Of a DNA stretch of 64,000 nt, positions 1,277 through 33,948 are shown piece after piece. Numbering within the stretch: the stretch's first letter is position 1; each line of letters opens with the position of its first letter. The position numbers and the translations under genes are program-made. Source of the stretch: Paracoccus aerius (GTDB taxonomy: Bacteria; Pseudomonadota; Alphaproteobacteria; Rhodobacterales; Rhodobacteraceae); NCBI RefSeq assembly GCF_014656455.1, contig NZ_BNCL01000012.1:1-64000 (forward strand), given 5' to 3'. A model generated the notes under the pieces. That model was given only the letters and a program-made list of their open reading frames with translations, did not search any database and had not been told where the DNA came from.

Positions 1277-3355
1277 TCAGAACCCCACCAGATCGTTCAG
1301 CTTCGCGCGGATCGCCGCGACCGAGGGCACGGCCCAATCCAGATAGACCGGATTATGCGGGCTGGGGATGTCGGGCATCGTCAGCCTCTCGACCGGGGCA
1401 TCAAGGTCGGTGAAGCCTTCGGATGCGACTACGGCGGCAATCTCCGCGCCAAAGCCCGCCGTCTGCAGATCCTCGTGGACGATCAGGCAGCGATGCGTCT
1501 TGGCGACCGAGGCCAGCACGGCCTCGCGGTCCCAGGGAACCAGTGTGCGCAGGTCGATCACATCGACCGACAGGCCCTGCGCGGCTTCCTGGCAGCGATC
1601 CACAAGGCCGCCCCAGGTGACGATCGTGGCCTGCGTCCCCTCGGCCACCAGACGGGCCTTGCCGAAGGGCAGCGCGAAGTCGTCGCCGGGCCAAGGCCTC
1701 CGTGCCCAGGAATGATCCAGCATCGCGCGATGTTCGAGGAAGATCACCGGGTCGTTGCCGCGCAGGGCGCTGCGCAGCAGGCCCACCGCGTCCTCGGCAT
1801 TGGACGGCGAGGCGACCTTCCAGCCAGGACTGTGGACGAAGGCGACCTCGTTCGTCTGGCTGTGCCAGGGATCGCCGCACTTGAAGAAGCCGACCGGCAT
1901 CCGCACCACCATCGGCGCGGCGAAGCGGTTGTTGGTCCGCCACCGCATCGAGCCGCAGTCGTTCAACTGCTCGGTCGCGGGTTCGGCGTATTTCCGGAAC
2001 TGGATTTCCGGCACGGGCAGCAGCCCGGCCAAAGCCATGCCCACCGCGCGACCGATGATGCCTTCTTCCGATAGCGAGGTGTCGAAGACCCGGTCGGCGC
2101 CATGCTTGTCCTGAAGGCCCAGCGTGACGGCGTGGACCCCGCCCTTGGGACCGACATCCTCGCCGAACACCACCATCCGGGGGTTCAGGGTCAGTTCCTG
2201 GTCCAGCACGCGGCGGATCGCGGTGACCATGTTGATGCGCTGCCCTTCGGGCCGGGCCTGGTCGGTCGAAGGCGGCGGGGTCCAGCCCAACGGCATCAGG
2301 CCGCCCAGGTGCTGCATCTCTCCGTCATGGAACACGTGCCGCAGGACCGTGGCCGGATCGCCCACCGGCCGCGCCTCGGCCGCCTCGCGCGCGGCTTCGG
2401 CCCGCTCGGCTGCGTCCTTCACCGCCCCGTCCCAATCCGACTTGCTCAGGATGCGCGGCACCAGATGGGCCTGCAGCTTGCACCAGGGATCGCGGGCGCG
2501 TTCGGCGGCGACGACGGTTTCCGGCTTGTAGGCCTGCGTGTCCTGGAAGCTGTGGCCCTGAAGCCGCGGCACGGTCAGCCGCAGCATCGCCGGGCCGCGT
2601 TCCTCGCGCACGAAGGCCACGGCCTCGGCCACCAGTTGCGCGGCCTCGACCGGGTCGGTGCCGTCGCCCGCGAAGATGCGCAGGCCGTTCCACGACGCCA
2701 GGTTGGCCGCGATGTTGCCGCCCGGCGTCTGCACCGTCGAGGCGACCGAGATGCCGAAGCCGTTATCCTCGACATAGAACAGCATCGGCAGCTTCTGGGT
2801 GGTGGCGATGGTCAGCGCGGACCAGAAGCCGTTGGACGCGACCGATCCGTCGCCCCCCAGCACGACCGCGATCGAACGGCCATGCGCGTCCGAACCCAGC
2901 ACCTTCGCCTGGTATTCAAGCGCCTGCGCCCAGCCCGCCGTGGGCGTGTATTGCGCGCCGACACCGCCACACATCGGCAGGGCCGTGGCGCCGTCGCGGT
3001 TGGGGTGGTTGAAGACCACGCCGATGTCGCGCCCGTCAGAATAGCCCCCCGCGCGCCCCATGGCCGAGCCGAGCGCATCGACCGGATCCACGCCAAGCGC
3101 CAGCAGCAGCGGCCGCGACCGGTAATAGCCGCAGACCGCGTCATGGCGTTCGGTCAGCTGCATCCCCAGAAGGATCTGCGCCATGTCATGCCCGCGCGCC
3201 GAGAACTGGTAGAGCACCTTCTTTTCGGGAACGAGGCGGGTTTCCTCCATCTCGTCCAGGGCGCGGCTCAACGCCATGTGACGCAGCACCGTGGCCCAGT
3301 CGACATCGGCATCGGGTGCGTTGCGGAACGCCGTGGCGGCTTGCGATCTGGCCAT
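1277..3355 (-). CDS. 2-oxoacid dehydrogenase E1, alpha and beta subunits fused (692 aa)
   Basis: This is a thiamine-diphosphate-dependent decarboxylase that feeds the E2 encoded just downstream. The N-terminal half is the E1-alpha (dehydrogenase E1) domain, with the ThDP motif from GDG at 168-170 to the Asn of EDNGFG near 198. The C-terminal half, from about residue 375, is the transketolase-like pyrimidine and C-terminal domain of E1-beta. Most complexes carry these as two proteins. The fused form resembles proteins annotated as alpha-ketoacid dehydrogenase alpha/beta in Rhodobacteraceae. An AAGGGG ribosome site precedes the ATG. The neighbouring Lrp regulator and lysine genes suggest an amino-acid-derived 2-oxoacid substrate; this is inference. 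Confidence 0.9.
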   Translation of the reverse strand: MARSQAATAFRNAPDADVDWATVLRHMALSRALDEMEETRLVPEKKVLYQFSARGHDMAQILLGMQLTERHDAVCGYYRSRPLLLALGVDPVDALGSAMGRAGGYSDGRDIGVVFNHPNRDGATALPMCGGVGAQYTPTAGWAQALEYQAKVLGSDAHGRSIAVVLGGDGSVASNGFWSALTIATTQKLPMLFYVEDNGFGISVASTVQTPGGNIAANLASWNGLRIFAGDGTDPVEAAQLVAEAVAFVREERGPAMLRLTVPRLQGHSFQDTQAYKPETVVAAERARDPWCKLQAHLVPRILSKSDWDGAVKDAAERAEAAREAAEARPVGDPATVLRHVFHDGEMQHLGGLMPLGWTPPPSTDQARPEGQRINMVTAIRRVLDQELTLNPRMVVFGEDVGPKGGVHAVTLGLQDKHGADRVFDTSLSEEGIIGRAVGMALAGLLPVPEIQFRKYAEPATEQLNDCGSMRWRTNNRFAAPMVVRMPVGFFKCGDPWHSQTNEVAFVHSPGWKVASPSNAEDAVGLLRSALRGNDPVIFLEHRAMLDHSWARRPWPGDDFALPFGKARLVAEGTQATIVTWGGLVDRCQEAAQGLSVDVIDLRTLVPWDREAVLASVAKTHRCLIVHEDLQTAGFGAEIAAVVASEGFTDLDAPVERLTMPDIPSPHNPVYLDWAVPSVAAIRAKLNDLVGF

Positions 3356-3949: not shown

Positions 3950-5161
3950 CTAGGTCAGGCGGCCGCAGGCGTCACCGATGCGGGTCATGGCTTCGGTCAA
4001 CTCGGCCGCCGATGTCGCGTAGGATATGCGGAAATAGGGCGAAAGCCCGAAGGCCGACCCGGGCACAACGGCCACATCCACCTCGTCCAGCAGCCAGGCG
4101 CAGAAGTCGCGGTCGCTTTCCAGCACCTTGCCACCTGGCGTGGTGCGGCCCAGGATGCCTGCGCAACTTGCAAAGGCATAGAACGCGCCCTCGGGGCGGC
4201 GGCACTGGATGCCGTCGATCCTGTTCAGGGCATCGACCACAAGGTCCCGCCGCGCCGCGAAGCTGTCGCGCCGGGCGGCCAGGAAGTCCTGCGGCCCGTC
4301 CAGTGCCGCGATGGCCGCTGCCTGCGTCACCGAACAGGGGCAGGATGTCGACTGGCTTTGCACCACCGCCATCCCCGCGATCAGCCCAGCAGGACCACCG
4401 GCATATCCAAGGCGCCATCCGGTCATGGCATAGGCCTTGGACACCCCGTTGATCGTCAGGCAGCGGTCCTTCAGCGACGGGTCAAGCGCCAGCGGCGTTA
4501 CAAAGCGGAACCCGTCATAGACAAGATGTTCGTACATGTCGTCGACCATCAGCCAGACATGCGGGTGGCGGTCCAGAACCTCCAGCAGCGCGCGATAATC
4601 CCGCTCGGCATAGGCGGCGCCGGTCGGATTCGAGGGCGAATTCAGCAGCAGCCATCTTGTGCGCGGCGTGATCGCGGCCTCCAATGCTGCCGGCGACAGG
4701 CGGAAGCCGCCCTCGCCGGGGCAAGGGATCGCGACGGGCACGCCGCCCGCGATCCGCACGATGTCGAAATAGCTGGTCCAGCAGGGGGTGGGGATGATGA
4801 CCTCGTCCCCGGGGTCAAGGCTGGCCATCATCGCGTTGTAGAGCATCTGCTTGGCGCCCGCGCCTGCCGTCACCTCGTCGGGGCCGAAGTCCAGCCCGTT
4901 CTCTCGCAAGAACTTGTCGCGGATGGCGCGCTTCAGCAGGGGCGAGCCGTCGAGGTTGGTGTATTTCGTCTCGCCCCGCCGGATCGCGGCGATCGCGGCC
5001 TCCTTGACATGGTCGGGCGTGTCGAAATCGGGCTCGCCCGCCCCAAGGGCGATGACGGGCCGCCCGTCGCGCTTCAGGGCGGCGGCGCGTGCGGTGATCG
5101 CCAGGATCTCGGACACGCCGAGATCCTCGATCCGGCTGGCGGGCCGGAAGATGCTGTTCAT
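3950..5161 (-). CDS. PLP-dependent class I/II aminotransferase, probably 2-aminoadipate or lysine (403 aa)
   Basis: This is a fold-type I aminotransferase of usual length. The PLP-binding Lys is K242 in NGVSKAYAMTGWR, and the NSPSNPTG motif (174-181) and Asp207/Tyr210 pocket residues are present. It is the last gene of a four-gene operon, nine bases after the semialdehyde dehydrogenase. From context I infer that it converts 2-aminoadipate to 2-oxoadipate, the substrate of the HglS enzyme encoded first in the operon. The family is broad (aspartate, aromatic and aminoadipate enzymes), so substrate assignment rests on the operon. Confidence 0.85.
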   Translation of the reverse strand: MNSIFRPASRIEDLGVSEILAITARAAALKRDGRPVIALGAGEPDFDTPDHVKEAAIAAIRRGETKYTNLDGSPLLKRAIRDKFLRENGLDFGPDEVTAGAGAKQMLYNAMMASLDPGDEVIIPTPCWTSYFDIVRIAGGVPVAIPCPGEGGFRLSPAALEAAITPRTRWLLLNSPSNPTGAAYAERDYRALLEVLDRHPHVWLMVDDMYEHLVYDGFRFVTPLALDPSLKDRCLTINGVSKAYAMTGWRLGYAGGPAGLIAGMAVVQSQSTSCPCSVTQAAAIAALDGPQDFLAARRDSFAARRDLVVDALNRIDGIQCRRPEGAFYAFASCAGILGRTTPGGKVLESDRDFCAWLLDEVDVAVVPGSAFGLSPYFRISYATSAAELTEAMTRIGDACGRLT

Positions 5162-5170
5162 GCCGGTCCC

Positions 5171-6682
5171 TCAGATGTCGAAGACGACACCCTGCGCCAG
5201 GGGCAGCGCGCGGGAATAGTTGATGGTGTTGGTCGCCCGGCGCATATAGGCCTTCCACGCGTCCGATCCGCTTTCGCGCCCGCCGCCCGTTTCCTTTTCG
5301 CCGCCGAAGGCGCCCCCGATCTCGGCTCCGGATGTGCCGATGTTGACATTGGCGATGCCGCAATCGGACCCGGATGCGGACAGGAACAATTCGGCCTCGC
5401 GCAGGTCGGTCGTGAAGATCGACGACGACAGGCCCGCCGCGACGGCATTGTGTTCCTGAATCGCGGCAGGCAGGTCGGCATAGCGCATGACATAGAGGAT
5501 CGGGGCGAAGGTTTCCTCAAGAACCGGACCCGTCTGCGACGGCATTTCCACCAGGGCGGGCCTGACATAGAAGGCCGCACCGGGACCGGCATCGGTGACC
5601 CGTTCGCCGCCGTGGACCGTTCCGCCGGCTGCTTGCGCTTGTTCCAGGGCGGCCTGCATGGCTTCAAAGGCATCCCGGTCCACCAAGGGTCCGACCAAAG
5701 CCTGCGTCGTCAGCGGATTGCCGACCGACACCGAGGCATAGGCCTTGATCAGCCGCGGCACCAGGGCGTCGTAGATGCTGTCATGGACGAACAGACGCCG
5801 CATCGTGGTGCAGCGTTGCCCGGCTGTGCCCATCGCGCCAAAGGCGATGGCGCGCAGAGCCATGTCCAGATCGGCCGACGGGCAGACGATGCCCGCATTG
5901 TTGCCGCCCAGTTCCAGGATCGTGCGCCCGAAGCGGGCCGCGACCCGGGGACCGACCTGCCGACCCATCCGCGTGGACCCGGTGGCCGAGACGAGCGCGA
6001 CGCGCGGGTCGTCAACAAGCGCCTCTCCGGTCTCGCGCCCGCCGATCACGACCTGGCTCAGGCCTTCGGGGGCGTCGCCGAACCGGGCCAGGGCGCGGTC
6101 CAGGATCGCTTGGGACGCCAAGGCTGTCAGGGGCGTCTTCTCGGACGGCTTCCAGACGACAGGATTGCCGCAGACCAGGGCCAGGGCCGTGTTCCACGAC
6201 CAGACGGCGACCGGAAAGTTGAAGGCCGATATCACGCCCACCACCCCCAGCGGATGCCAGGTTTCCATCATGCGGTGGCCTGGACGTTCTGTGGCGATGG
6301 TCAGGCCGTAGAGCTGGCGCGACAGGCCTGTGGCAAAGTCGCAGATGTCGATCATCTCCTGCACCTCGCCCGCACCTTCGGAGGGAGACTTGCCCGCCTC
6401 GATCGAGACAAGGCGCCCCAGATCGTCCTTGGCGGCGCGCAGTTCCTCGCCCAGCAGGCGGACCAGTTCGCCGCGGCGCGGGGCAGGCACGTCGCGCCAG
6501 ATGCGGAAGGCGTCTGCCGCGCGGGCCACGGCGGCCTGAACCTCGGCCGCCGAATGCTGCGGCAGCTCGGCCACCCGCTCTCCGGTGACGGGGGAAAAGC
6601 TGTGAAGCGTCCCGTTCGTGTAAAGGGCCGCGTCAACGCCCAGTTTCGAAAGGATCCGGGTGCAGTCATCGGTGATCGTCAT
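5171..6682 (-). CDS. amaB: Aldehyde dehydrogenase family 7, piperideine-6-carboxylate / aminoadipate-semialdehyde dehydrogenase (503 aa)
   Basis: This NAD(P)-dependent enzyme probably oxidises 2-aminoadipate 6-semialdehyde (in equilibrium with piperideine-6-carboxylate) to 2-aminoadipate. Catalytic Cys291 sits in GQRCTT and the general base Glu257 in LELGGNN. The long stretch around SRQLYGLTIATERPGHRMME and the LGVVGVISAFNFPVAVWSWN core are typical of the ALDH7/antiquitin/AmaB group rather than general ALDHs. It begins eight bases after the D-2-hydroxyglutarate dehydrogenase gene. I considered ketoglutarate semialdehyde dehydrogenase for the hydroxyproline genes, but the sequence type and operon favour lysine catabolism. 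Confidence 0.88.
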   Translation of the reverse strand: MTITDDCTRILSKLGVDAALYTNGTLHSFSPVTGERVAELPQHSAAEVQAAVARAADAFRIWRDVPAPRRGELVRLLGEELRAAKDDLGRLVSIEAGKSPSEGAGEVQEMIDICDFATGLSRQLYGLTIATERPGHRMMETWHPLGVVGVISAFNFPVAVWSWNTALALVCGNPVVWKPSEKTPLTALASQAILDRALARFGDAPEGLSQVVIGGRETGEALVDDPRVALVSATGSTRMGRQVGPRVAARFGRTILELGGNNAGIVCPSADLDMALRAIAFGAMGTAGQRCTTMRRLFVHDSIYDALVPRLIKAYASVSVGNPLTTQALVGPLVDRDAFEAMQAALEQAQAAGGTVHGGERVTDAGPGAAFYVRPALVEMPSQTGPVLEETFAPILYVMRYADLPAAIQEHNAVAAGLSSSIFTTDLREAELFLSASGSDCGIANVNIGTSGAEIGGAFGGEKETGGGRESGSDAWKAYMRRATNTINYSRALPLAQGVVFDI

Positions 6683-6690
6683 GTCATTCC

Positions 6691-8091
6691 TCAGTCAAAA
6701 CGGGCCGCGCCGATCCCGGCGCCGCCAAGGGTCCGCAAAAGCCCGCCTGCCAACCCGCGCAGCACCGGATCGGCATAGGCGTCATAGTAGGCCTGGTTGC
6801 GCCGACCGATCGCATGTTCGGCGCTGAAGCTGCCACCGAAATCGCGCACCGCGACCCGCACGACGCGGTCCCGCAAGGCTGCCTCGGCCGCGGGATCGGT
6901 GGCGCAGGGGCTGCCGGGCGGCACGACCAGATTGAAATGGACGCCCCCGTCGCCGATATGGCCGAAGTCGCAGACGACCGCTTCGGGATGGGTCAAGGAC
7001 AGTTCCTCGCGCATCCGGGCGCAAAAGCGCATGGTGTCGCCTCGACGGAAGGACAGGTCGAAGGCGATCAGCTTGCCGGCCGCCCTGACCCCTTCGGACA
7101 GGGCATGGCGCAAGGCCCAGCCCTGCCCCGGCCGCCCGAAGCGGGCATCGGCAAGAAGCTCGGGGGCCTCCTCGGTCAGGGCGCCAAGGCTGCCTTGCAG
7201 CAGATCGTCAAGGGGCGGATCGCCCGGCATTGCGGCGGTCCGGGAGACCTCCATGAGGATAGCGTAATCGGGCACGGGATCCGGCGCGAAGGGATCGCGA
7301 AGCGACGGAACATGGTCCAGGGCCGCACGGATGGCCGCGCCGGACATTCCTTCGAAGGCTGTCAGCATCGTGCCGAACCGGCGCTCGGCCTGCCGCAGCA
7401 GGGGCAGGATCGTGTCCGGTCCGGCGGGGACAAGGATGGCGACCGCCGTGTCGCCGGGCAGGGGCGACAGGCGCAGTTCGACCTCGGTGACAATGCCGAA
7501 GACGCCGCTGGTGCCGATCAGCAGGTGCTTCCAGTCGGGGCCGGTGTTGTCCTTGCGCAGCCCACGGCCCATCGACAGGACGCGGCCGTCCGGCAGCACG
7601 GCGCTCAGGCCCAGCACATTGGCACGCATGTCGCCATAGCGCAGGAACCGTGCCCCACCCGTATTGGTCGCGACCATCCCCCCGACCGAAGGGTCGGCGC
7701 CCAAATCGATGGGCAGGGCATAACCCTCGGCCGCGGCCTGCGCGTTCAGGTCGGACAAAAGCACCCCCGCCCCGACACGGGCGGAAGCATTGTCACCGTC
7801 GATCGCGATGTCCTTGAGCCGCTCCAGCGACAGGATCAGATCCGTGCCGCTGTCATCGGGCGTGGATCCTGCCACAAGCCCCGTGTTCGCGCCTTGCGGC
7901 ACGATCCGCGCACCATGCCGTGCCGCAGCGGCGACGCAGGCTGCGACCTGCCGTGTGTCGGCAGGGCGCAGCACCGCAAGGCTGACGCCCCGGTCATAGC
8001 GCGCACCCTGGTCATAGCGCGCGCGGTCCGCGTCCTGCCGGATCAAACCCTCCGGGCCAAGGATCGCCTCCATCTTCGCCAGCAGGGTCAT
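6691..8091 (-). CDS. FAD-linked D-2-hydroxyglutarate dehydrogenase (466 aa)
   Basis: This is a flavoprotein of the D-lactate / D-2-hydroxyglutarate dehydrogenase family. It has an N-terminal FAD_binding_4 domain (the GANTGLVAG loop near residue 70 and DLGADPSVGGMVATNTGG) and a C-terminal FAD-oxidase domain with the metal-binding GHIGDGGVHFNL motif. Its ATG overlaps the HglS stop by four bases (ATGA), which indicates translational coupling. The HglS product is D-2-hydroxyglutarate, so oxidation to 2-oxoglutarate is the expected role. The reading frame stays open far upstream inside HglS; the ATG at 8091 fits both the family length and the overlap. Confidence 0.88.
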   Translation of the reverse strand: MTLLAKMEAILGPEGLIRQDADRARYDQGARYDRGVSLAVLRPADTRQVAACVAAAARHGARIVPQGANTGLVAGSTPDDSGTDLILSLERLKDIAIDGDNASARVGAGVLLSDLNAQAAAEGYALPIDLGADPSVGGMVATNTGGARFLRYGDMRANVLGLSAVLPDGRVLSMGRGLRKDNTGPDWKHLLIGTSGVFGIVTEVELRLSPLPGDTAVAILVPAGPDTILPLLRQAERRFGTMLTAFEGMSGAAIRAALDHVPSLRDPFAPDPVPDYAILMEVSRTAAMPGDPPLDDLLQGSLGALTEEAPELLADARFGRPGQGWALRHALSEGVRAAGKLIAFDLSFRRGDTMRFCARMREELSLTHPEAVVCDFGHIGDGGVHFNLVVPPGSPCATDPAAEAALRDRVVRVAVRDFGGSFSAEHAIGRRNQAYYDAYADPVLRGLAGGLLRTLGGAGIGAARFD

Positions 8092-9458
8092 GCGCGGCCG
8101 ATCGCCTGCAAGCTGGCTTTCAGGGATGCGGCTTCGATGCCGGCGTAATGGGCGAACTCGTCCAGGACAGGGGCGCCAAGATCGTCCTCGAACTGGCGCT
8201 GATTGCGGCTGGCCGCGAAATCCTGGACCGCCTCGTCGCCCAGGTTGGACTGGAAGATGCCGGCGGCCGATACCGGCAGGAAATCCTCGTAGATGATCGG
8301 ATCGCAGCGCAACGCGCCTTGGGCCAGCAAGGCTTCCGGGTCGTCCCCGGCTGCCGGCCTGCCCGTCGCGGACCATTCGAAATAGCCCAGCCCCTGGCTG
8401 CGGATCGCGTCCCAGTCGTCGGGGAAGGCTTCGAAGACATCGCCAAGGATGCGCATGTATTCGGACGCATTCGATCCGTCGGCTGCGGGGACGATGCGGG
8501 CGCGAACCTGGTCCAGCAGGCTGTCGTAAAGCGTGCGCCCCTTGGGCGTCAGCGCGATTCCCCTGGCCTCGATCTCTCCGAACCGGGCGGTATGCGACCC
8601 CTCGACAGCCGCATCGCCCGGAAACCTCACTGCCTCCTGCAGCGCCTTGAACGAGGTCTGGCGCAGCAGGATCGGGCAGTGGCGCCGGGGCGGACCCTCG
8701 ATCACCGCCTTCGGTGCGATGCCAAGCGCGGGCATGCGGGCCTGCACCGCGTCGATGTCCAGCGTCCGCGGCGTCAGGTGGTTGATATGGGGCCCCTTGA
8801 AGGACACGACATCCGCGACCAGCCGGTGCGCGCCGTGCAGCCGCTTGTAGAGGTCGGCCAAAACCAGGGCGTCGGAATGCCAGCGGAAGGTTTCGACCGC
8901 CTCGGCCACGAACTGCTCTGCCTCGCTGTCGGACAGGCCGCCGTCGCATTCGGCCCTGTCGATCAGCGACAGGCAGGCGGGGGTGAAGATGTCGCGCCGG
9001 GCCAGGATCGCCGCCGCCTCGTTCCGCAGCGCGCGGTCCGAGATCAGGTCCAGCCGCAGAAGCGAGGTGAAGACCCGGAACGGGTTGCGGCGCAGGGCCG
9101 CCTGCCCGACTGGCCGGAAGGCCGTAGAATGGACGGGAACGCCCGCCTCGCTGAGGTCGTAATAGCCGACCGGATACATGCCCATCACTGCGAACAGGCG
9201 GCGGATCGTCGCAAGCTCTTGCGCGGTGCCAAGGCGGATGGCGCCGTGCCGTTCCTCGGAGATGCGGTCAATCTGGTCGGTGGCAGCAAGATTGGCAGCC
9301 AGGACCGGGTCACGGTCCAGAACCTCAGCATTCACCTCGGCCACAAGCGACAGCAGCGTTCCATAGGCTGGCACCTCGTCGCGATACATGGCCGACATGG
9401 CCGATGAAAAGCGGGCGCGGATGTGGTCAGGCGAAAGCCGGGGGATGCGGGATGACAT
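8088..9458 (-). CDS. hglS: 2-oxoadipate dioxygenase/decarboxylase, HglS family (DUF1338; 456 aa)
   Basis: HglS enzymes are Fe(II)-dependent and convert 2-oxoadipate plus O2 to D-2-hydroxyglutarate and CO2. With the start at 9458, the likely metal triad is His71 (EERHGAIR), His227 (GPHINHLTP) and Glu295 (RFGEIEARG). Each is one residue off my recollection of the Pseudomonas putida enzyme (70, 226, 294), and Arg75 matches its substrate Arg. In-frame ATGs at 9491 and 9497 would add 11-13 residues. This is the first gene of the lysine-type operon and is divergent from a LysR gene. Its presence indicates the route that bypasses glutaryl-CoA. Confidence 0.9.
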   Translation of the reverse strand: MSSRIPRLSPDHIRARFSSAMSAMYRDEVPAYGTLLSLVAEVNAEVLDRDPVLAANLAATDQIDRISEERHGAIRLGTAQELATIRRLFAVMGMYPVGYYDLSEAGVPVHSTAFRPVGQAALRRNPFRVFTSLLRLDLISDRALRNEAAAILARRDIFTPACLSLIDRAECDGGLSDSEAEQFVAEAVETFRWHSDALVLADLYKRLHGAHRLVADVVSFKGPHINHLTPRTLDIDAVQARMPALGIAPKAVIEGPPRRHCPILLRQTSFKALQEAVRFPGDAAVEGSHTARFGEIEARGIALTPKGRTLYDSLLDQVRARIVPAADGSNASEYMRILGDVFEAFPDDWDAIRSQGLGYFEWSATGRPAAGDDPEALLAQGALRCDPIIYEDFLPVSAAGIFQSNLGDEAVQDFAASRNQRQFEDDLGAPVLDEFAHYAGIEAASLKASLQAIGRA

Positions 9459-9490
9459 GGGGCCTGCGAACGGGAGATTTGCGTTGTTCA

Positions 9491-9539
9491 TCACCATAGC
9501 GTATCGGATCAAGGCCGAAACGCGCTGATTTTGGCTATG
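9491..9539. promoter_or_regulatory. Inverted half-sites between hglS and the divergent lysR gene
   Basis: CATAGC at 9495-9500 and GCTATG at 9534-9539 are inverted copies. The match extends to TCAnCATAGC on both arms. They sit between the two divergent genes, where a LysR dimer pair would bind, but their wide spacing makes this only a candidate operator. Confidence 0.35.
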
Positions 9540-9555
9540 TTGATGTGGATTCGGA

Positions 9556-10443
9556 ATGAAGTTGAGCCGCAGCCTTGTCCCCGACATCCTGTCGCTGCAG
9601 TCTTTCGAAGCCGCCGCCCGCCACGGCAGCTTCACCCGCGCGGCCGAGGAATTGAACCTGACGCAAAGCGCGGTCAGCCGCCAGATCAAGGATTTGGAGG
9701 CGCAACTGGGCGTCGCGCTGTTCGAGCGCGTGCGCCAACGGGTCGTCTTGTCGAATGCCGGAACGCGGCTGCTGCCCGACGCGATGCGCCTGATGCGCCA
9801 GGTCGAGACGCTTGCCCTGCGCGCGGCGGGATCGCGCGACGTGCAGGGCCACCTGTCGATCGCGACCCTGCCCACCTTTGGCAGCCGTTGGCTGGTTCCG
9901 CGGCTGGCCGGGTTCCTGGAACGGAACCCGGGCCTGCAGGCCCAGGTCATCAGCCGGTCCGAGCCGTTCGATCTTGGCGAAGCTGGCGTGAACGTCGCGA
10001 TCCACTATGGCCAGCCGGTCTGGCCGGGCGCGACCTGCACCTATCTGTGCAGCGAGACGGTTGTCCCGGTCGCCTCTCCCGCCTTTGCGGAACGCCAGGG
10101 GTCCGCGCCCCTGACGCCCTTCCTGCTGCACATGGAGTCGCGGCCGATGCTGTGGTTCGATTGGCTGACCGCCAATGGAGAGGGCGTCGATGACGCCTTC
10201 CGCGGGCACCGCTTCGACCAGTTCGCGCTGCTGATCGAGGCGGCGGTGGCGGGCTTGGGCGTTTCCCTGGTTCCGCCCTATCTGATTGAACGCGAACTTC
10301 GCGAGGGCAGCTTGCAGGTGATGCGCGATGCACCCATGACGACCGACGCGGCCTATTACGTGGTGCTTCCCGATGACCGCAAATCAGACCCCGCCTGCAG
10401 CGCCTTTCTGAAGTGGATCACCGAAACCGTCGCGACCCGTTAG
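9556..10443 (+). CDS. LysR family regulator, GcvA-like (295 aa)
   Basis: The N-terminal winged helix-turn-helix (about 10-68, with GSFTRAAEELNLTQSAVSRQI) and the C-terminal periplasmic-binding-protein-like effector domain are both complete. The gene is divergent from hglS with about 97 bp between starts, so it is the likely regulator of the 2-aminoadipate/2-oxoadipate operon, with a pathway intermediate as a plausible inducer (inference). It ends 60 bases before the convergent serine hydrolase gene. Confidence 0.88.
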   Translation: MKLSRSLVPDILSLQSFEAAARHGSFTRAAEELNLTQSAVSRQIKDLEAQLGVALFERVRQRVVLSNAGTRLLPDAMRLMRQVETLALRAAGSRDVQGHLSIATLPTFGSRWLVPRLAGFLERNPGLQAQVISRSEPFDLGEAGVNVAIHYGQPVWPGATCTYLCSETVVPVASPAFAERQGSAPLTPFLLHMESRPMLWFDWLTANGEGVDDAFRGHRFDQFALLIEAAVAGLGVSLVPPYLIERELREGSLQVMRDAPMTTDAAYYVVLPDDRKSDPACSAFLKWITETVATR

Positions 10444-10502: not shown

Positions 10503-11729
10503 CTATTCCAGGGCCTTTGCCACGGCGTCGAAGAACACCAGGGGGTCGATCGGTTCCTTGCCGACCGGCTTGGGCTGCGCCATGTGGGTGGCGATGACGA
10601 TGTTCTTCGCCGGGTTGATATAGATGTTCTGGCCCTGGATGCCGATGGCCGCGAAGGCCTTGTCGGCGATGGACGGCTCGGTCCAGCCGGGCCACCACAT
10701 CAGCCCGTATTCGATCACGCTGCCATCCTTCAGCGTCTGCGGCTTGCCCGCATCCTCGGTCCAGCCGTCCGGAAGGACGGGGGTGCCGTCGATCACGCCG
10801 CCTTCCAGGAAGAACTGCCCGAAGCGCGCGAAATCGCGCAGCGTCGCGGACAGGCCGCTGCCGCCGATCTCGACCCCGTCCGGGGAATCCAGCCACCATG
10901 TCGCGTCGGCTTCCATTCCATAGGGCTGCCAGATCGTCTCGGACAGGTAATCGGCAAGGGGCTTGCCCACCGCGCCACGCAGGATCTCGGCCAGAACCTG
11001 GGTTTCGCCGGTGGAATAGGTATGCTGCGTGCCCGGCTCGGCCGCGCGGGGCAGCGCCGCCATGACCTTCATCGCGGCGCCCGGTTGCTGGGCGATCTGC
11101 GCGCGCAGCAGGTCGCGGCGGTCCGATTGCGGGTCGGTATAGGTCTCGTTCCATTCCACGCCCGAAGCCATGCGCAGGATGTCCAGGATGCTGACCCCGT
11201 CATAGGCGCTGCCCTTCAGGCCGGGAACATAATCGACCACCATGTCGTCGACGCTGCCGATATGGCCGTCACGGATCGCCGCGCCCACAAGGGTCGAGGT
11301 GATGGACTTGGCCACCGACATCGACATCCAGCGGGTCTGTGGCGTGTTGCCGCGCTGATAGGTTTCATAAACGACGGCGCCGTCCTTCAGCACGATCAGG
11401 CCCGTCACATTGTCAAGCGCCAGGAAGTCATAAAGGTCATAGGCCTGCCCCTCGATTTCGAAGGATACCATTGCGGGCAGATCCTGCGGCGCCTCGGGCA
11501 GGGCGCGGGGGCTGTCGCCGGCCTCGATCGTGCGGACAGGGAACAGGCGGTCGATATTGCGGAAGGTGCTGACCGCCAGGTCGGGGGTCAGGTGACCGTC
11601 ATAGATCTGCTCGACCGTGCCAATGGGCTCCTCTGCATGAGGATAGCCCTGTGCCGCAACCGGCCCCGGAAGCGCAAGGCACAGCAAGGCGCCCGCCAGA
11701 AAAGCCCAGTTTTTCCCGCCCGTCAGCAT
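10503..11729 (-). CDS. Secreted serine hydrolase, class C beta-lactamase family (408 aa)
   Basis: An N-terminal signal peptide (about 1-27, ending PGPVAAQG) sends this protein to the periplasm. The beta-lactamase/esterase fold is shown by the SxxK motif S138-V-A-K141 in WMSMSVAKSITS and a later YST motif (HTYSTGET) at the usual Tyr position. Members include carboxylesterases, D-aminopeptidases and 6-aminohexanoate-dimer hydrolases; nothing here shows beta-lactam hydrolysis. The ATG at 11729 is chosen over upstream in-frame starts because a GGAGGA ribosome site precedes it and the signal peptide begins there. Confidence 0.85.
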   Translation of the reverse strand: MLTGGKNWAFLAGALLCLALPGPVAAQGYPHAEEPIGTVEQIYDGHLTPDLAVSTFRNIDRLFPVRTIEAGDSPRALPEAPQDLPAMVSFEIEGQAYDLYDFLALDNVTGLIVLKDGAVVYETYQRGNTPQTRWMSMSVAKSITSTLVGAAIRDGHIGSVDDMVVDYVPGLKGSAYDGVSILDILRMASGVEWNETYTDPQSDRRDLLRAQIAQQPGAAMKVMAALPRAAEPGTQHTYSTGETQVLAEILRGAVGKPLADYLSETIWQPYGMEADATWWLDSPDGVEIGGSGLSATLRDFARFGQFFLEGGVIDGTPVLPDGWTEDAGKPQTLKDGSVIEYGLMWWPGWTEPSIADKAFAAIGIQGQNIYINPAKNIVIATHMAQPKPVGKEPIDPLVFFDAVAKALE

Positions 11730-11815: not shown

Positions 11816-12412
11816 TCAGGTCCAGTTCAGCAGCGGATAAAGCGAGGCGATCAGCAGCGCCGCCATCCCGACGTTGAAGGCGCGCAATCGGGCGGCGCTG
11901 GACAGCCATTGCCGGATCACCGTGCCCAGCCAGGCCCAGACCGAGATCGCCGGAAACGCGACAAGGGCCAAGGCCCCCGTGACGATCGCGACCGACAGGA
12001 TGGACCGGTCAGGGGCGTAAAGCGTCACAGCCGACAGGCACATCGCCCAGGCCTTGGGATTGACCCACTGGAACGCCGCCGCCTGCCAGACGGTCATCGG
12101 GCTTCCTGCCGCCGCGCTGTCGCCAAGCGGCGCGGCGGTGGCGATCTTGAAGGCCAGCCACAGCAGATAGCCGACAGACAGGATGCCAAGCGCCATCTCA
12201 AGCGCCGGAACCGTTTCGAAAAGCGCCATCAGCCCCGCCCCTACCAGGAACGCCATCAGGCAGACCCCGCCGACGATGCCCAGCATATGCGGCAGCGTGC
12301 GGCGGAAGCCGAAATTGGCGCCCGAAGCCATCAGCATCAGGTTGTTCGGCCCCGGCGTGACGGTGGTGACGAATGCAAACCCCAGAAGGGCGGAAAACAA
12401 TGCTAGGGTCAT
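11816..12412 (-). CDS. LysE family amino-acid exporter (198 aa)
   Basis: This small inner-membrane exporter has about six hydrophobic segments. The family signature near the N-terminus is present (FVTTVTPGPNNLMLMASG, residues 14-31), as is the QWVNPKAWAM motif in the middle. LysE/RhtB proteins export basic amino acids, threonine, homoserine or similar. The divergent Lrp gene next door is the usual partner and supports amino-acid-responsive export. An in-frame extension upstream would run into that regulator, so the ATG at 12412 is used. Confidence 0.88.
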   Translation of the reverse strand: MTLALFSALLGFAFVTTVTPGPNNLMLMASGANFGFRRTLPHMLGIVGGVCLMAFLVGAGLMALFETVPALEMALGILSVGYLLWLAFKIATAAPLGDSAAAGSPMTVWQAAAFQWVNPKAWAMCLSAVTLYAPDRSILSVAIVTGALALVAFPAISVWAWLGTVIRQWLSSAARLRAFNVGMAALLIASLYPLLNWT

Positions 12413-12521
12413 GTGGCTTGCCTTGGGTCTTGCCGATGCAGGATGTTTCGCTGGACATCTATCCTGCCCGCACCGCAATGATGCGCCAGAAGTTGATCCT
12501 TTCGTAGTTAATCGACAACAA

Positions 12522-12977
12522 ATGATCGCTGTTTCCGGCATGGACCGAAAGATATTGCATGAACTGGCGCGCAATGGCCGGATCAGCAACGTGCAACTGG
12601 CCGAGCGCGTCGGCCTGTCGCCCTCGGCCTGCCTGCGCCGTGTCCAGGAACTCGAGCGGTCGGGGATCATCAGGGGCTACCGCGTCGTCACCGATCCCGA
12701 AAAGATGGGCCGCGGATTCGTGGCCTATGTGATGGTGGGCCTGTCCTCGCACACCAAGGCCGCGCAGGAAGGCTTCGAGCGGGCAATGTCAATCGCGCCC
12801 GAGGTCGCCGAATGCCACAATATCGCGGGGGCCTTCGAATACCTGCTGCGGGTGGAATGCGCGGGCCTTGCGGACTATAAGCGTTTTCACACCGAAGTTC
12901 TGGGCACGCGGTCCCATGTCAATGCCATCACGTCCTATATCGTGATGGGCTCGCCCAAGGATGATCGCGCGACCTAG
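12522..12977 (+). CDS. Lrp/AsnC family transcriptional regulator (151 aa)
   Basis: It has a helix-turn-helix ([20 protein letters not shown] through SPSACLRRVQ) followed by the AsnC ligand domain. It is divergent from the LysE exporter gene with about 109 bp between starts and is probably its activator. The ATG at 12540 (MDRKIL) is an alternative that would shorten the protein by six residues; neither start has a strong ribosome site. Confidence 0.87.
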   Translation: MIAVSGMDRKILHELARNGRISNVQLAERVGLSPSACLRRVQELERSGIIRGYRVVTDPEKMGRGFVAYVMVGLSSHTKAAQEGFERAMSIAPEVAECHNIAGAFEYLLRVECAGLADYKRFHTEVLGTRSHVNAITSYIVMGSPKDDRAT

Positions 12978-19935: not shown

Positions 19936-20352
19936 TCAGGATATCCGGTCGGCCAAGGCCGCCTTGATGTCGGGACTTGCCTGCAACGCGCCCAGGACCG
20001 AGATCGATCCGATCGTGGCGCGAACCAGGTCGGGCGTGACATCGGGGGCAAAGCGCGCAAGCCCCACGACCTTGACATGCAGCACCTCGCCCTTGTCGCG
20101 CAGGGCTTCAAGTTCGGCTCGGTTGTAATCGCGCAGGCCCAGTTCCATCGTGTGCCGTTCCAGCGACTTGCTGACCACGTCGCGGTGGCTGTCCAACTGG
20201 CCGCGGATGGCGGTGCGGATGAAGTCGCTGCGGTTTGAATAAAAGCCTTCCTGCACCAGCAGATCGATCCGCCCCAGGTCCACATAACCCAGGTTGATCG
20301 TGATCTTTTCGGTCTCGGGTACCCTGTCGCGAAGGGTTCTGATATCGGCCAC
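19936..20352 (-). CDS. Ribbon-helix-helix (CopG-type) regulator (138 aa)
   Basis: The segment EKITINLGYVDLGRIDLLVQ followed by GFYSNRSDFIRTAIRGQL is a ribbon-helix-helix DNA-binding domain (about 15-60). The C-terminal half is unassigned and may bind a ligand or mediate oligomers. The only in-frame start with a ribosome site (GGAG) is the GTG at 20352; the nearby ATG at 20357 is out of frame. It is co-transcribed with the esterase and probably represses its own promoter through the repeats at 20361-20387. Confidence 0.78.
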   Translation of the reverse strand: MADIRTLRDRVPETEKITINLGYVDLGRIDLLVQEGFYSNRSDFIRTAIRGQLDSHRDVVSKSLERHTMELGLRDYNRAELEALRDKGEVLHVKVVGLARFAPDVTPDLVRATIGSISVLGALQASPDIKAALADRIS

Positions 20353-20360
20353 AGCATTTC

Positions 20361-20387
20361 TCCATCTGTATGGATGGTATATGGATG
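20361..20387. promoter_or_regulatory. Candidate RHH operator: tandem TATGGATG repeats
   Basis: TATGGATG occurs at 20369-20376 and again at 20380-20387, 11 bp apart, which is one helical turn. A TCCAT-CTGT-ATGGA inverted repeat (20361-20374) overlaps the first copy. Direct repeats at one-turn spacing just before the start codon are typical of autoregulated ribbon-helix-helix proteins. Confidence 0.5.
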
Positions 20388-20461
20388 TATCTTAGATGAT
20401 TGCAAGGTCGGTTGCGGCTGTTTCTGGTTGCAGGCAGGATGAAGGCCAAGGGGGTCCAAGC

Positions 20462-21133
20462 ATGTGCAATCTGTATTCCAACCGGATGAGCCAGCACGAG
20501 ATGCGGCGGATCTTCGACGTGGTGCCGGGCCTGGACCACTTGGGCAATGCGGCTGAATGGCCGGCGGTCTGGCCGAAATACGAGGCCCCGGTCGTCCGGT
20601 TGGCGCCCGACGGTGCGCGGGAACTCGTCAGCGCCCATTGGGGCTTTCTGACGCCCGCGGTGTCAAAGAAGACCGGCAAGCCGATCGCGCCTGTTGCCTG
20701 GAACAACGCCCGTGACGACAAGATGACAGGCGGGCTGTGGAAGGACAGTTTCCTGAACCGCCGCTGCCTGATCCCCGCCACCAGCTTCCGCGAGGCCAAG
20801 GGCCGCAGCCCAGCAACCGATGTCTGGTTCGCCCTGGCGGGTGATGACGACCGGCCGCCCTTCGCCTTTGCCGGGTTGTGGCGCGCGGGCCAGCCGGGCG
20901 TGGCGGGGGACCAGGGGGCGTGGCTGACCCATACGATGATCACCACCACCGCCAACGACCTGGTCAGGCCGGTGCATCCCACGCGGATGCCGGTGATCCT
21001 TGACCCGCAGGACCATGAACAGTGGCTGAAGGGCAGCCCCGCCCAGGCCATGGCGCTGTTGCGGCCCTATCCCGCGGACCGGATGCGCATCGTGCGCGAG
21101 GGGGTGGGGATCTTGGCCGACGGTTCGCCATGA
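20462..21133 (+). CDS. yedK: SOS response-associated peptidase, HMCES/YedK family (223 aa)
   Basis: SRAP proteins crosslink to abasic sites in single-stranded DNA through Cys2. Here the sequence begins Met-Cys-Asn-Leu-Tyr, so Cys2 is free after Met removal. The Glu in LIPATSFREAK and the His in RPVHPTRMPVIL match the other active-site residues. The start at 20462 has an AAGGGGG ribosome site. It is divergent from the ribbon-helix-helix gene, and no LexA box was recognised in the 109-bp gap. Confidence 0.9.
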   Translation: MCNLYSNRMSQHEMRRIFDVVPGLDHLGNAAEWPAVWPKYEAPVVRLAPDGARELVSAHWGFLTPAVSKKTGKPIAPVAWNNARDDKMTGGLWKDSFLNRRCLIPATSFREAKGRSPATDVWFALAGDDDRPPFAFAGLWRAGQPGVAGDQGAWLTHTMITTTANDLVRPVHPTRMPVILDPQDHEQWLKGSPAQAMALLRPYPADRMRIVREGVGILADGSP

Positions 21134-21225
21134 TGCCGCAAGGCCGCAACGGAACCTGCGCAGCCCCGCGGCCATTTCCCTTCCGCTTCCTCCGCCGGAG
21201 GAGGCCAGCAAACGGGGACGACAGG

Positions 21226-22722
21226 ATGATCGAACTGAAGCCGGGGCGGAACTGCTGGCGGATCGAGACGGCCGAGCGCCTGTCCGTCATCATCGATGGC
21301 CAGGCCTATTTCCGCGCCCTGCGCGAAGCCATGCTGAAGGCCCAGCGGATGGTCATGATGATCGGCTGGGATTTCGACTTCGAGATCGAGATGCTGCCCG
21401 GCGAAAGTGATGCGGACGGGCTGGCCCCGGACGGCTTTCCGAACAAGGTCGGACCGTTTCTTGAAGCCATCGTGGACCGTCGCCAGGATCTTGACATCTA
21501 CCTGCTGAAATGGAGCGGGGGTGCCCTGATCGCGCCCGGCGGCATCCTGCCCGCGCTTGCCGTCAAGCTGATGTCGCCCGACCAGATTCACCTGGCCTTT
21601 GACGGCCGCCATCCGATCGGCGCCTGCCACCACCAGAAGATCGTGGTGATCGACGACAGCCTGGCCTTCTGCGGCGGGATCGACATGACCGACGGCCGCT
21701 GGGACGACCGCGAGCATCTGGACGACAACCCGCTGCGCTGCCTCAAGAACGGGGCCGAGGCCCAACCCTGGCACGACGCCTCAACGGTGATGTGCGGGCC
21801 CGCGGCGGCGGCCATGTCGGAACTGGCCCGCGCCCGCTGGGCCCGCGCCCATGACGCCGAGGTCGACGAGGACTTCGCGCCGGGCGCCAATCTTTGGCCC
21901 GACAGCATCAATCCCGCCTTCCACGACATCCCCGTGGCCATCGCCCGTACCGCCCCGCCCGAGGCAGGCCGATCCGGCATCCACGAGATCGAGGATCTGT
22001 ATCTGGACGCGATCCGCGCGGCCCGGGACTGCATCTATATCGAATCGCAGTATTTCTGCGCAGGCAGCATCACCCGCGCGATCCGCCGCCGCTTGTCGGA
22101 TCCCGATGGCCCCGAGGTGGTGGTCATCAACCCCTATGCCGCCCAGGGCCATGTCGAGGATCAGGCGATGCATGTCACCCGCAGCCGGATGGTCCGCACG
22201 CTGCGCCAACACGACCGCTATGGCCGGTTCCGCATCCTGTATCCCGTCACGGACAGCGGCCAGCCGATCTATGTCCATGCCAAGATCATGATCGTCGACG
22301 ACATGCTGCTGCGGATCGGATCCAGCAATATCGACCGCCGGTCCATGGGCTTCGACACGGAATGCGACGTGGCGATCCAGGCCCGGGACGATGCGACGCG
22401 CGACCTGATCCGCGATTTCCGCGACGGGCTGCTGGCGGAACACCTGGGGCGCGACAAGACCGAGGTGGCGCGAGCGATCGACCGGCACGGGCGGGTCGTG
22501 CCCGCACTCGACGGCCTGATCCGCGACACAGGCCGCAGCCTGCGCCCCCTGCCGTTGAGGCGAGAGTCATGGCTGGGCAGCCTGCTGGCCAACACGCGCT
22601 TCTTCGATCCACGCTATCGCCGCAGCGCGCACGCGCGCACCGGCATCACGGCGCGCCACCTGATGCTGGGCGCAGGCGTGCTGGCAGGCGGAGCCTGGGC
22701 CTGGCGGCGGCTGCGACGCTAG
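21226..22722 (+). CDS. Phospholipase D-like phosphodiesterase/transphosphatidylase (498 aa)
   Basis: Two HKD motifs are present: His136-x-Lys138-x4-Asp143 (HHQKIVVID) and His351-x-Lys353-x4-Asp358 (HAKIMIVDD), giving a PLD active site. The C-terminus (about 470-490, HLMLGAGVLAGGAWAW) is a single hydrophobic segment followed by Arg residues, which suggests membrane anchoring. There is no signal peptide. It resembles PLD-type enzymes rather than cardiolipin synthase, which has N-terminal membrane segments. It converges with the glycosyltransferase gene, and the two stops overlap in CTAG. Confidence 0.85.
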   Translation: MIELKPGRNCWRIETAERLSVIIDGQAYFRALREAMLKAQRMVMMIGWDFDFEIEMLPGESDADGLAPDGFPNKVGPFLEAIVDRRQDLDIYLLKWSGGALIAPGGILPALAVKLMSPDQIHLAFDGRHPIGACHHQKIVVIDDSLAFCGGIDMTDGRWDDREHLDDNPLRCLKNGAEAQPWHDASTVMCGPAAAAMSELARARWARAHDAEVDEDFAPGANLWPDSINPAFHDIPVAIARTAPPEAGRSGIHEIEDLYLDAIRAARDCIYIESQYFCAGSITRAIRRRLSDPDGPEVVVINPYAAQGHVEDQAMHVTRSRMVRTLRQHDRYGRFRILYPVTDSGQPIYVHAKIMIVDDMLLRIGSSNIDRRSMGFDTECDVAIQARDDATRDLIRDFRDGLLAEHLGRDKTEVARAIDRHGRVVPALDGLIRDTGRSLRPLPLRRESWLGSLLANTRFFDPRYRRSAHARTGITARHLMLGAGVLAGGAWAWRRLRR

Positions 22723-23765
22723 GGGGCGCAGTCCGACAGCACAAGACTGGCGCTGTCTGCCATGTCCTGCCATGACGGCAGCCCCTGCCCTGCCTCGCGT
22801 GCTGCACGGGCAATGGCTTGCCGCCGCGCCGGGTCGACCAGCAGCATCCGCAGCGCATCAGCCAGGGCAGCCGGATTGCCCGGCAGCACCAGCAGCCCCG
22901 CGCCGGGCGGCACGGTATCGGGCACGGCGCCGGTATCGCAGGTGACGACCGGCAGGCCGCGCGCCAAGGCCTCGTCGAAGACGATGCCGTGGCCTTCGTA
23001 CCAGGTCGCCAAGGCAAAGATCGAGGCGCGGGCGTAAAGCTCCTCAAGCTCATCCGCGGACACGCGACCCGCCAGCCTGACACGATCGGCCACCGGGCTT
23101 GCCGCCCGCTGGCGTGACAGGGCAGCCGCGTGATCGGCGTCCCAGGGATTGCCCACGATCACCGCCCGCCAGTCCAGATCCGCCAGCCGCGACAGCGCGT
23201 CCAGCAGGATGTCATGGCCCTTGCGCGGATGCAGGATGCCCACCGACAGGATCAGCGGCATGGGATCGGGCGCGGGCGGCAGACGGGGCCGGTCCACGCC
23301 GGGCCGCAGGATGGTGATCGCGCGGGGATCGGCGCCGTATCGGTCCACGAGGATCCGGCGGGTATGGGGGCTGGGCACCAGCACGTGCCGGGCCAGGCGC
23401 AGGTTGTCACGCTCGGTCTGGAACAGGTGGTCCTGCCGGTCGGAGGACAGGCCGGTTTCCAGGGCCAGCGGATGGTGGATCATCGCCACCAATGGCGCGC
23501 GGACCCGCGCCAGCCCGGTGGTGTCGATGGACCCGAAGACCAGTCCGTCCAGGATCAGCGGCCGGTCCGGGGACACTGCCGCCAGCATCGCGACGGCCTC
23601 GGTCATGTCCGCTGCCGAAGGGTCGGGAAAGCTGGCCGCAAGCTGCAGGTGCTGCACGTCATGGCCCGCCTGGCGCAGTCCTTCAAGCAGGCGGCGTTCA
23701 TAGATATAGCCGCCGGTCAGCGTGGCGATGTCGCCGGGGATGGCAAAGGCCAGCGGGGGCTTCAC
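22719..23765 (-). CDS. Glycosyltransferase family 4 (GT-B fold; 348 aa)
   Basis: This is a retaining glycosyltransferase with a GT-B fold. The C-terminal nucleotide-sugar domain contains LHPRKGHDILLDAL and the E-x7-E motif in YEGHGIVFDEALARGLP. The GTG start at 23765 overlaps the permease stop as GTGA, and the frame remains open upstream inside the permease. It is the last gene of a six-gene operon with lipid-headgroup-type enzymes, which suggests a glycolipid or exported glycan acceptor; this is inference. Donor and acceptor are unknown. Confidence 0.85.
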   Translation of the reverse strand: MKPPLAFAIPGDIATLTGGYIYERRLLEGLRQAGHDVQHLQLAASFPDPSAADMTEAVAMLAAVSPDRPLILDGLVFGSIDTTGLARVRAPLVAMIHHPLALETGLSSDRQDHLFQTERDNLRLARHVLVPSPHTRRILVDRYGADPRAITILRPGVDRPRLPPAPDPMPLILSVGILHPRKGHDILLDALSRLADLDWRAVIVGNPWDADHAAALSRQRAASPVADRVRLAGRVSADELEELYARASIFALATWYEGHGIVFDEALARGLPVVTCDTGAVPDTVPPGAGLLVLPGNPAALADALRMLLVDPARRQAIARAAREAGQGLPSWQDMADSASLVLSDCAP

Positions 23766-25297: not shown

Positions 25298-26079
25298 TGC
25301 GCCGCCAGCGCTTGCGCCTGTTCGCCCCCGCGGATCAGCAGGGCCAACACCTCGGCGGACAGGCGGCGGAAAGCGGCGGATTCAGGGTCGCGCGACCGGG
25401 GCAGGGTCACGTCCAGATCGGCCATCACCCGGGCCGGGCGGGGCGACAGGACGACGATGCGGTCTGCCAGCATCACGGCCTCGTCCACGGAATGGGTCAC
25501 CAGAAGCGTGGTGGCCTGCTGCCGCTGCCACAGGGGCGGAAGGTCATGGGCAAGCTGGCGGCGCGTCAGGGCGTCAAGCGCACCGAAGGGCTCGTCCAGC
25601 AGCAGGACGCGGGGGCGGGTGACCAAGGCGCGGGCGATGGCCGCGCGCTGCCGCATTCCGCCGGACAGGGCGGCGGGACGGGCGTTCTGGAAACCGCCCA
25701 GGCCCACCAGGTTGATCATCTGATCCACCGCCTGCGGGTCGGGCGCCTGCCGCGCAAGCCTTAGGCCAAGCGCCACGTTGCGCGTCACCGTCAGCCAGGG
25801 CAGCAGGCAAGGATCCTGAAAGGCGACGGACAGACCGCCCTGCTTGCACAGTGCCTGGGGCGGCTGGCCTGCGATCAGGACCTGGCCCGCCGTCGGATCC
25901 TCCAGCCCCGCGATCAGGCGCAGAAGCGTGGACTTGCCGCAGCCCGATGGTCCCAGAAGCGCCGTGGTGCGGCCTGCAGCGAAGGTCAGGTCAATGCCGT
26001 CCACGGCCAGGATGCTGCCGTCGAAAAGCCTCGAGACGCCGGAACACTGGATATCGGCCGGGACGGCGGCCTCAGCCAT
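25294..26079 (-). CDS. ABC transporter ATP-binding protein, SsuB/TauB type (261 aa)
   Basis: It has Walker A GPSGCGKSTLL (near residue 43), Q-loop FQDPCLLPW, signature LSGGMRQR and Walker B VLLLDEP. The PCLLPW and DALTR features are those of nitrate/sulfonate/thiamine-precursor importers. Its start overlaps the binding-protein stop by eight bases, and its stop overlaps the permease start, so the three subunits are coupled. Confidence 0.9.
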   Translation of the reverse strand: MAEAAVPADIQCSGVSRLFDGSILAVDGIDLTFAAGRTTALLGPSGCGKSTLLRLIAGLEDPTAGQVLIAGQPPQALCKQGGLSVAFQDPCLLPWLTVTRNVALGLRLARQAPDPQAVDQMINLVGLGGFQNARPAALSGGMRQRAAIARALVTRPRVLLLDEPFGALDALTRRQLAHDLPPLWQRQQATTLLVTHSVDEAVMLADRIVVLSPRPARVMADLDVTLPRSRDPESAAFRRLSAEVLALLIRGGEQAQALAAQ

Positions 26080-27064: not shown

Positions 27065-27126
27065 GGCAATTCTCCGACAGGAAACAGGATCATCATGGGG
27101 CGCAAGGGCATGGGCAGGCAAGACTT

Positions 27127-29408: not shown

Positions 29409-29513
29409 GACGGAAGCCTAGGGAAAGGCTGCAATCCGTCAAGCGCGTCCTGCAATCCCGCTTCGCGGAGGGCGGCTTTTCTGCTAGCCTTGGCCCGACA
29501 AAGGAGCCCAGTC

Positions 29514-30891: not shown

Positions 30892-31020
30892 CGCGCTATC
30901 TCCCTCTGCGGCTTCGCCATGGAACCGCCTGTGGGGCGAGCCTGTCAAGCGCCGCCAAAAGGGTGACGGTTCGGCCCGGCGCGGCTTGCAGGACAAGCGG
31001 GCTTGTGATCCCCTGCCCCC

Positions 31021-31848: not shown

Positions 31849-31905
31849 GGTCCGCAGGCTTGCGGCGCGGCCCCTGGTCCGCCGCCCAATGGCAAGGAGG
31901 ATGGG

Positions 31906-32655: not shown

Positions 32656-32787
32656 TCGCGGCAGGGGTCGTCCTGCCGCGCCGCAGATTCTGATCGTTCC
32701 GTGACTGGAGGAGAAAGACGCAAGCGGATAAGCAGCAAGCGACCCTGCCCCTCTTTCCCGGCCCGGGGCGGAACCGAAAGGCCTGTC

Positions 32788-33876: not shown

Positions 33877-33948
33877 CGAAAATACTAGACTACCCGTTGC
33901 CGGCTGCGTAAGACCCTTTGCAACGGAACAAACGTCGGAGGGAACATC

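Follow-up and report, generated by a model that had tools for sequence, protein, structure and literature searches.

The window analyzed here is a stretch of 64,000 nucleotides from Paracoccus aerius (contig NZ_BNCL01000012.1, positions 1 to 64,000). Its minus strand carries a four-gene operon headed by hglS, which we read as a probably plasmid-borne copy of the genes for the lower part of aerobic lysine breakdown, from L-piperideine-6-carboxylate (P6C) to 2-oxoglutarate, most likely supplied with L-lysine through a LysDH-like enzyme; we put the probability of this reading at roughly 0.8. In the proposed route, AmaB would convert P6C, or 2-aminoadipate semialdehyde, to 2-aminoadipate, from which an AatB-type aminotransferase would form 2-oxoadipate. 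HglS would use Fe(II) and O2 to decarboxylate and hydroxylate 2-oxoadipate to 2-hydroxyglutarate, and a flavin adenine dinucleotide (FAD)-dependent dehydrogenase would oxidize this product to 2-oxoglutarate. The P6C would most likely come from L-lysine via the LysDH-like enzyme, which is encoded beside a second hglS operon on another contig (C14), and a divergent LysR regulator probably switches the window operon on. We infer the in vivo flux, the LysDH activity, the regulation, the plasmid location, and the substrates of the aminotransferase and the dehydrogenase. The pathway and the gene order are already known elsewhere; what is new is the second operon with its probable entry enzyme, the link to AatB, and a lysine missing in the hglS-linked dehydrogenase.

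Organization and conservation of the operon

Gene identities, the HglS active site, the gene order, and the second operon copy can be read from the sequence. In the open reading frames of the window, hglS (8088..9458), the FAD dehydrogenase gene (6691..8091), amaB (5171..6682), and the aminotransferase gene (3950..5161) run head to tail on the minus strand from 9458 to 3950. The first two genes overlap by four bases (ATGA), and the intergenic spacings before and after amaB are 8 and 9 bases, respectively. An alternative hglS start near 9497 is possible, with in-frame ATGs upstream. On the opposite (plus) strand, a gene for a GcvA-like LysR-family regulator (9556..10443; 236.6 bits to NF008352, under the cut-off of 288) starts 97 bases from hglS, just beyond the range 3950-9539. 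An earlier note, made from the letters of this DNA, had described four coupled genes with a divergent LysR, and the positions, strands, overlap, and gaps agree with that description.

For comparison, 101 rows of hglS loci were compiled; these represent at most 99 distinct loci, as L105/L005 and L084/L011 each look like one record. Rows L001 and L002 (short pieces of L003, which holds the second operon, and of the window), L085-L102 (short, replaced by L104-L121), and L103 (partial, under the cut-off) were left out. Eighty of the surveyed loci are the best 80 of at least 584 confirmed matches, and genes missing from short or cut loci (e.g., L006, L043, L046, L084, and L112) are not evidence of absence. 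The order divergent lysR, hglS, FAD dehydrogenase, amaB, and aminotransferase is found in 25 of the 101 loci, the window included, so the compact arrangement is not unusual and the novelty that the note had implied for it does not hold. Rhizobiaceae and some Paracoccaceae commonly have the operon in this form. Operons of Sinorhizobium meliloti 4H41 (L040), Shinella (L012), Mycoplana (L014), and other Rhizobiaceae share all five genes with the window in the same order and orientation. However, their FAD dehydrogenases are 52-57% identical to that of the window, and a LysDH-like gene lies nearby in L012, L014, L016, and L025 but not in the window.

HglS, AmaB, and the aminotransferase

The hglS product belongs to the VOC superfamily (PF07063) and scores 730.6 bits to NCBIfam NF049974, above the curated cut-off of 550, and 536.8 bits to Pfam HGLS. 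Among 14 control genomes, Escherichia coli is the sole one with a protein over the HglS cut-off, which we take to be YdcJ. In an alignment with Pseudomonas putida HglS (6W1G), 268 of 446 aligned residues are identical. His71, His227, and Glu295 (numbering from MSSRIP) align with His70, His226, and Glu294, as the proposal of these residues as a metal triad would have it, and Arg75, Val396, and Ser397 align with Arg74, Val402, and Ser403; all six named active-site residues are thus kept. According to the P. putida study, the first three are metal ligands, the other three (an arginine and two loop residues) contact the substrate, and conversion of 2-oxoadipate requires Fe(II) and O2 (PMC7286885). 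The score and the active-site residues together support the assignment of the window protein as a 2-oxoadipate dioxygenase/decarboxylase.

The P. putida pathway resembles the predicted one in its identical HglS metal and substrate residues and in its AmaB, aminotransferase, and 2-hydroxyglutarate dehydrogenase steps (PMC7286885). In the window, by contrast, a single operon covers all four steps, and its FAD dehydrogenase is of a single-domain type. In P. putida, amaA, amaB, a lysR, and hglS are presumably neighbors and the aminotransferase and 2-hydroxyglutarate dehydrogenase, the latter presumably of the YdiJ type, are encoded away from hglS; if so, the description of the P. putida genes in the note as scattered is only partly right.

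AmaB, the predicted P6C/2-aminoadipate-6-semialdehyde dehydrogenase of the ALDH7 type, scores 825.2 bits to the P6C dehydrogenase model NF050084, above the curated cut-off of 730. Among its solved relatives are 6RTR ("Semialdehyde dehydrogenase Pcd") and 4X0T (alpha-aminoadipic semialdehyde dehydrogenase). The genome has exactly two P6C dehydrogenases over the cut-off, one in each operon.

The pyridoxal phosphate-dependent aminotransferase (class I/II) is of the AatB type, with 71.6% identity to 6F35 ("Aspartate aminotransferase B") across 398 residues. Its homolog in the S. meliloti 4H41 hglS operon is 97.5% identical to 6F35, which fits our assumption that 6F35 is an S. meliloti protein. The AatB gene thus appears to be part of an hglS operon, and AatB may act on 2-aminoadipate. 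No description tying AatB in Sinorhizobium to this pathway was found in the literature searched. Its place in the operon suggests a physiological setting for this enzyme. Two points weigh against the assigned reaction: the solved relative is named an aspartate aminotransferase, and the best NCBIfam model of the window protein is an aspartate transaminase (PRK06107, 543.1 bits, under the cut-off of 617). The predicted conversion of 2-aminoadipate to 2-oxoadipate accordingly draws on context. The pathway assignment made in the note is mostly right: the HglS and AmaB steps are upheld by curated cut-offs, and operon conservation alone argues for the aminotransferase step.

Pathway input and the second operon

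The second operon (L003, on contig C14; operon 2 hereafter) consists of lysR, hglS, amaB, an aminotransferase gene, and a gene for a YdiJ-type FAD/Fe-S dehydrogenase (860.1 bits, under the YdiJ cut-off of 1350). The first four genes have the same order as in the window; operon 2 differs in ending with the YdiJ-type enzyme in place of the single-domain type and in having a LysDH-like gene and an Lrp-type regulator gene alongside. The sole listed match of this regulator is the LysM family, under the cut-off. The LysDH-like gene (C14:90718-91785) encodes a protein with saccharopine-dehydrogenase Pfam domains, which we read in its context as a probable lysine 6-dehydrogenase, and it is the one strong match of its kind in the genome. 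In line with the note, no entry enzyme was found in the window itself. The search elsewhere in the genome that it had proposed yielded this candidate, and no lysine 6-aminotransferase (best 159.3 vs. 520.8 bits) or AmaA (NF050086, cut-off 600 bits) exceeded its cut-off genome-wide. These search results make L-lysine via LysDH the best guess, and L-lysine is likely the main input in this genome, with pipecolate a possible second source of P6C. LysDH-like genes occur in 19 of the 101 loci, and L119 and L121 each hold amaB, LysDH, aminotransferase, hglS, and FAD dehydrogenase genes in a single neighborhood.

Several observations weigh against lysine as the input. The LysDH-like protein has no NCBIfam family match at E 1e-20 and only distant solved relatives (best 2.4e-16). 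Among the three other hglS-bearing genomes of the genus, LysDH matches are at trace level in G020 (5.7e-5) and G033 (5.4e-5) and absent in G058, so the pathway input may differ between species. An alternative is that the window operon serves mainly L-pipecolate (or D-lysine via pipecolate), converted to P6C by an AmaA-type oxidase encoded elsewhere, with operon 2 serving L-lysine. An AmaA-like oxidase gene adjoins lysR-hglS in two loci of the genus whose genomes lack a strong LysDH match (L106, 466 bits; L104, 449.9 bits), and P. aerius has an AmaA-like gene of its own (C21:10784-12025, 397.5 bits). However, all three proteins score under the AmaA cut-off, no AmaA-like gene was seen beside the window operon, and operon 2 likewise has an AmaA-like fragment at the contig edge (C14:100047-100196, 50% identity over 50 residues). 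We regard this alternative as rather unlikely.

The two operons share 65-85% protein identity. At four-fold degenerate sites, identity is 45-57% in each of the four shared genes, and no near-identical stretch appears in 30-codon windows; gene conversion between the operons was rejected on these grounds. Trees were built from rows hand-picked among the 101 loci (42 for hglS, 36 for amaB, and 26 for the aminotransferase, with weaker aminotransferase matches dropped). The window hglS, amaB, and aminotransferase cluster with Frigidibacter L004 and L109 in a starred group, whereas amaB and the aminotransferase gene of operon 2 are placed with Paracoccus rhizosphaerae L007. Because the nearest relatives differ, recent duplication within the genome was also rejected; the two operons appear to have been acquired separately or duplicated long ago, possibly with later losses. 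Operon 2 may itself be a mosaic, as its hglS groups weakly with L110 (87/64), apart from the relatives of its operon neighbors. Genes for an amino-acid ABC transporter, an enolase-superfamily protein, a DadA-like FAD dehydrogenase, and an acetolactate-synthase-like thiamine pyrophosphate enzyme adjoin the hglS operons of L003 (1-5628) and L109, and the ABC, DadA, and thiamine pyrophosphate enzyme members also lie alongside the L035 operon. This gene set is possibly another feeder into the pathway.

The hglS-linked FAD dehydrogenase

D-2-Hydroxyglutarate is an oncometabolite, which gives the enzymes that remove it a broader relevance. The window FAD dehydrogenase has FAD_binding_4 and FAD-oxidase_C domains (Pfam), and its closest solved relatives are 3PM9 and human D-2-hydroxyglutarate dehydrogenase (D2HGDH, 6LPN). 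Forty-one rows of the survey (at most 40 distinct), the window included, carry an hglS-linked FAD dehydrogenase of this type, and human Arg386, His434, His441, Asn443, Glu475, and His476 are kept in all 41. The Zn ligands, the C1-carboxylate arginine, and the catalytic histidine of the D2HGDH type are thereby present in the window protein. To the YdiJ-type model NF049975 (cut-off 1350), the window protein scores 40.6 bits. The single-domain and YdiJ types alternate at hglS loci: the FAD dehydrogenase is found at 41 of the 101 loci and YdiJ at 16, without a single co-occurrence (6.5 expected; a YdiJ-like gene in L039, about 6 kb off on the other strand, was left out of the 16). This alternation makes it likely that the two fill the same role. 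The window enzyme likely oxidizes D-2-hydroxyglutarate, judging by these sequence features.

Other observations weigh against this assignment. The position of human Lys401 is occupied by Ala in 40 of the 41 proteins, including that of the window, and by Gly in the remaining one, so the lysine that forms a salt bridge to the C5-carboxylate is missing. In the part of the human study consulted, Lys401 binds the C5-carboxylate and its mutation abolished activity (PMC7801405). In addition, the hypergeometric P of about 9e-5 for the mutual exclusion with YdiJ ignores the relatedness of the loci. The lysine is retained in 3PM9, and five other relatives in the genome (at least 95 bits) have Arg, Ser, Asp, Ile, and Cys at this position. 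Compared with human D2HGDH, Tyr432 is replaced by Phe in all 41 proteins, and the window protein also has Ser for Thr390. Of the claim that this gene encodes a D-2-hydroxyglutarate dehydrogenase, the fold family and the conserved metal and C1-carboxylate residues stand, but the C5-carboxylate lysine does not. The missing lysine appears as a new caveat for the hglS-linked dehydrogenases, and we describe the window protein as probably working like D2HGDH without filing it as a proven member.

Alternatively, the FAD dehydrogenase may use another 2-hydroxyacid, leaving D-2-hydroxyglutarate to be oxidized by a different enzyme, for example the YdiJ-type dehydrogenase encoded in operon 2. The replacements at Lys401 and Tyr432 point in this direction, and the consulted part of the human study reports small residues in place of Lys401 in glycolate and D-lactate dehydrogenases (PMC7801405). 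However, Asn443 is kept in all 41 proteins, whereas the same part of that source gives hydrophobic residues at this position in glycolate and D-lactate dehydrogenases (PMC7801405). Moreover, the gene directly follows hglS and alternates with YdiJ. Positions that are basic in all 41 proteins but not in human D2HGDH, among them Arg284, His329, Arg350, and Arg407 of the window protein, might take over carboxylate binding. Use of another substrate is improbable on this balance.

Oxidation of 2-hydroxyglutarate thus remains the favored role, and the protein offers a simple test case for a 2-hydroxyglutarate dehydrogenase working without the canonical carboxylate-binding lysine. A broader, joint proposal is that the hglS-linked FAD dehydrogenases form an unrecognized, pathway-dedicated class that binds the distal carboxylate without this lysine (through the four candidate residues named above) and that Sinorhizobium AatB, named as an aspartate aminotransferase, serves physiologically as the 2-aminoadipate aminotransferase in lysine breakdown. 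We offer both halves together tentatively, at somewhat below even odds. In L104 of the same genus (G058), a 181-aa open frame after hglS (10520-11065) resembles by eye the start of the FAD dehydrogenase, as if the gene had been reduced.

Distribution and plasmid location

Within the family, hglS is rare, being found in 17 of 394 genomes including that of the window (16 over the cut-off). A search of 101 genomes of relatives found it in five, four of them of the genus, counting the window's own. Among the hglS-bearing genomes of these searches, only that of the window has two matches. Across its entire length, the compared segment of the window (20001-40000) shares 98.8% identity with the 471,727-bp plasmid pAK1 from Paracoccus sp. 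AK26. The pAK1 HglS is 97.8% identical to the window protein, and the operon recurs with its flanking genes in the annotated region around hglS of pAK1. The window copy is therefore probably on a plasmid. Another plasmid, from Paracoccus sp. Arc7-R13 and 33 kb in size, is typed as mobilizable; it bears the gene series lysR-hglS-amaB-aminotransferase-FAD/FeS dehydrogenase and, at some distance, recombinase and MobV relaxase genes. In total, 77 of 72,556 plasmid records have an HglS relative. Horizontal spread of the hglS module would explain its patchy distribution. In Alphaproteobacteria, the HglS lysine route appears as a compact module that is often carried on plasmids and occurs patchily. 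The literature searched yielded nothing on point about hglS gene clusters in these bacteria, and none of the pathway terms looked for is present in PMC9007349; we do not claim an absence of prior description.

Regulation and neighboring genes

A divergent lysR gene lies directly before hglS at 80 of the 101 loci. In an alignment of nine lysR-hglS gaps, a block at 9517..9545 (no strand assigned) is largely conserved among the window, operon 2, and seven other Paracoccaceae. This block is a possible LysR operator, and a common LysR response of both operons is plausible. Beyond lysR and a serine hydrolase gene, 11816-12977 holds a translocator gene of the LysE family and a divergent gene for an Lrp/AsnC regulator. 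Both names come from the collinear pAK1 genes, and a connection to lysine export is possible.

On the other side of the operon are genes for the E1 (1277-3355, alpha and beta fused, 692 aa) and E2 (84-1337) components of a 2-oxoacid dehydrogenase, with a divergent Lrp-type regulator. That these enzymes convert 2-oxoadipate to glutaryl-CoA, making the cluster a branch point, is very improbable: the genes adjoin the operon in both the window and pAK1, and glutaryl-CoA is formed from lysine in A. tumefaciens, likewise an alphaproteobacterium (PMC7645780), but no E1/E2 genes were seen close to hglS in L004, the nearest locus, or in the other surveyed Paracoccaceae loci, several of them short, except for a partial 42% E1-like match about 4 kb from hglS in L113, and their own divergent Lrp-type regulator suggests branched-chain oxoacids as substrates. 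The statement in the note that the pathway proceeds without glutaryl-CoA describes the route encoded by the operon.

Farther along the window, 36643-46740 holds a 3-hydroxyproline-type cluster. It encodes a cis-3-hydroxy-L-proline dehydratase (910.6 bits, cut-off 700), a trans-3-hydroxy-L-proline dehydratase-like protein (441 bits, under the cut-off of 550), a DadA-like dehydrogenase, and a protein weakly matching L-sulfolactate dehydrogenase, together with an ABC transporter and a DapA-like protein recognized by eye.

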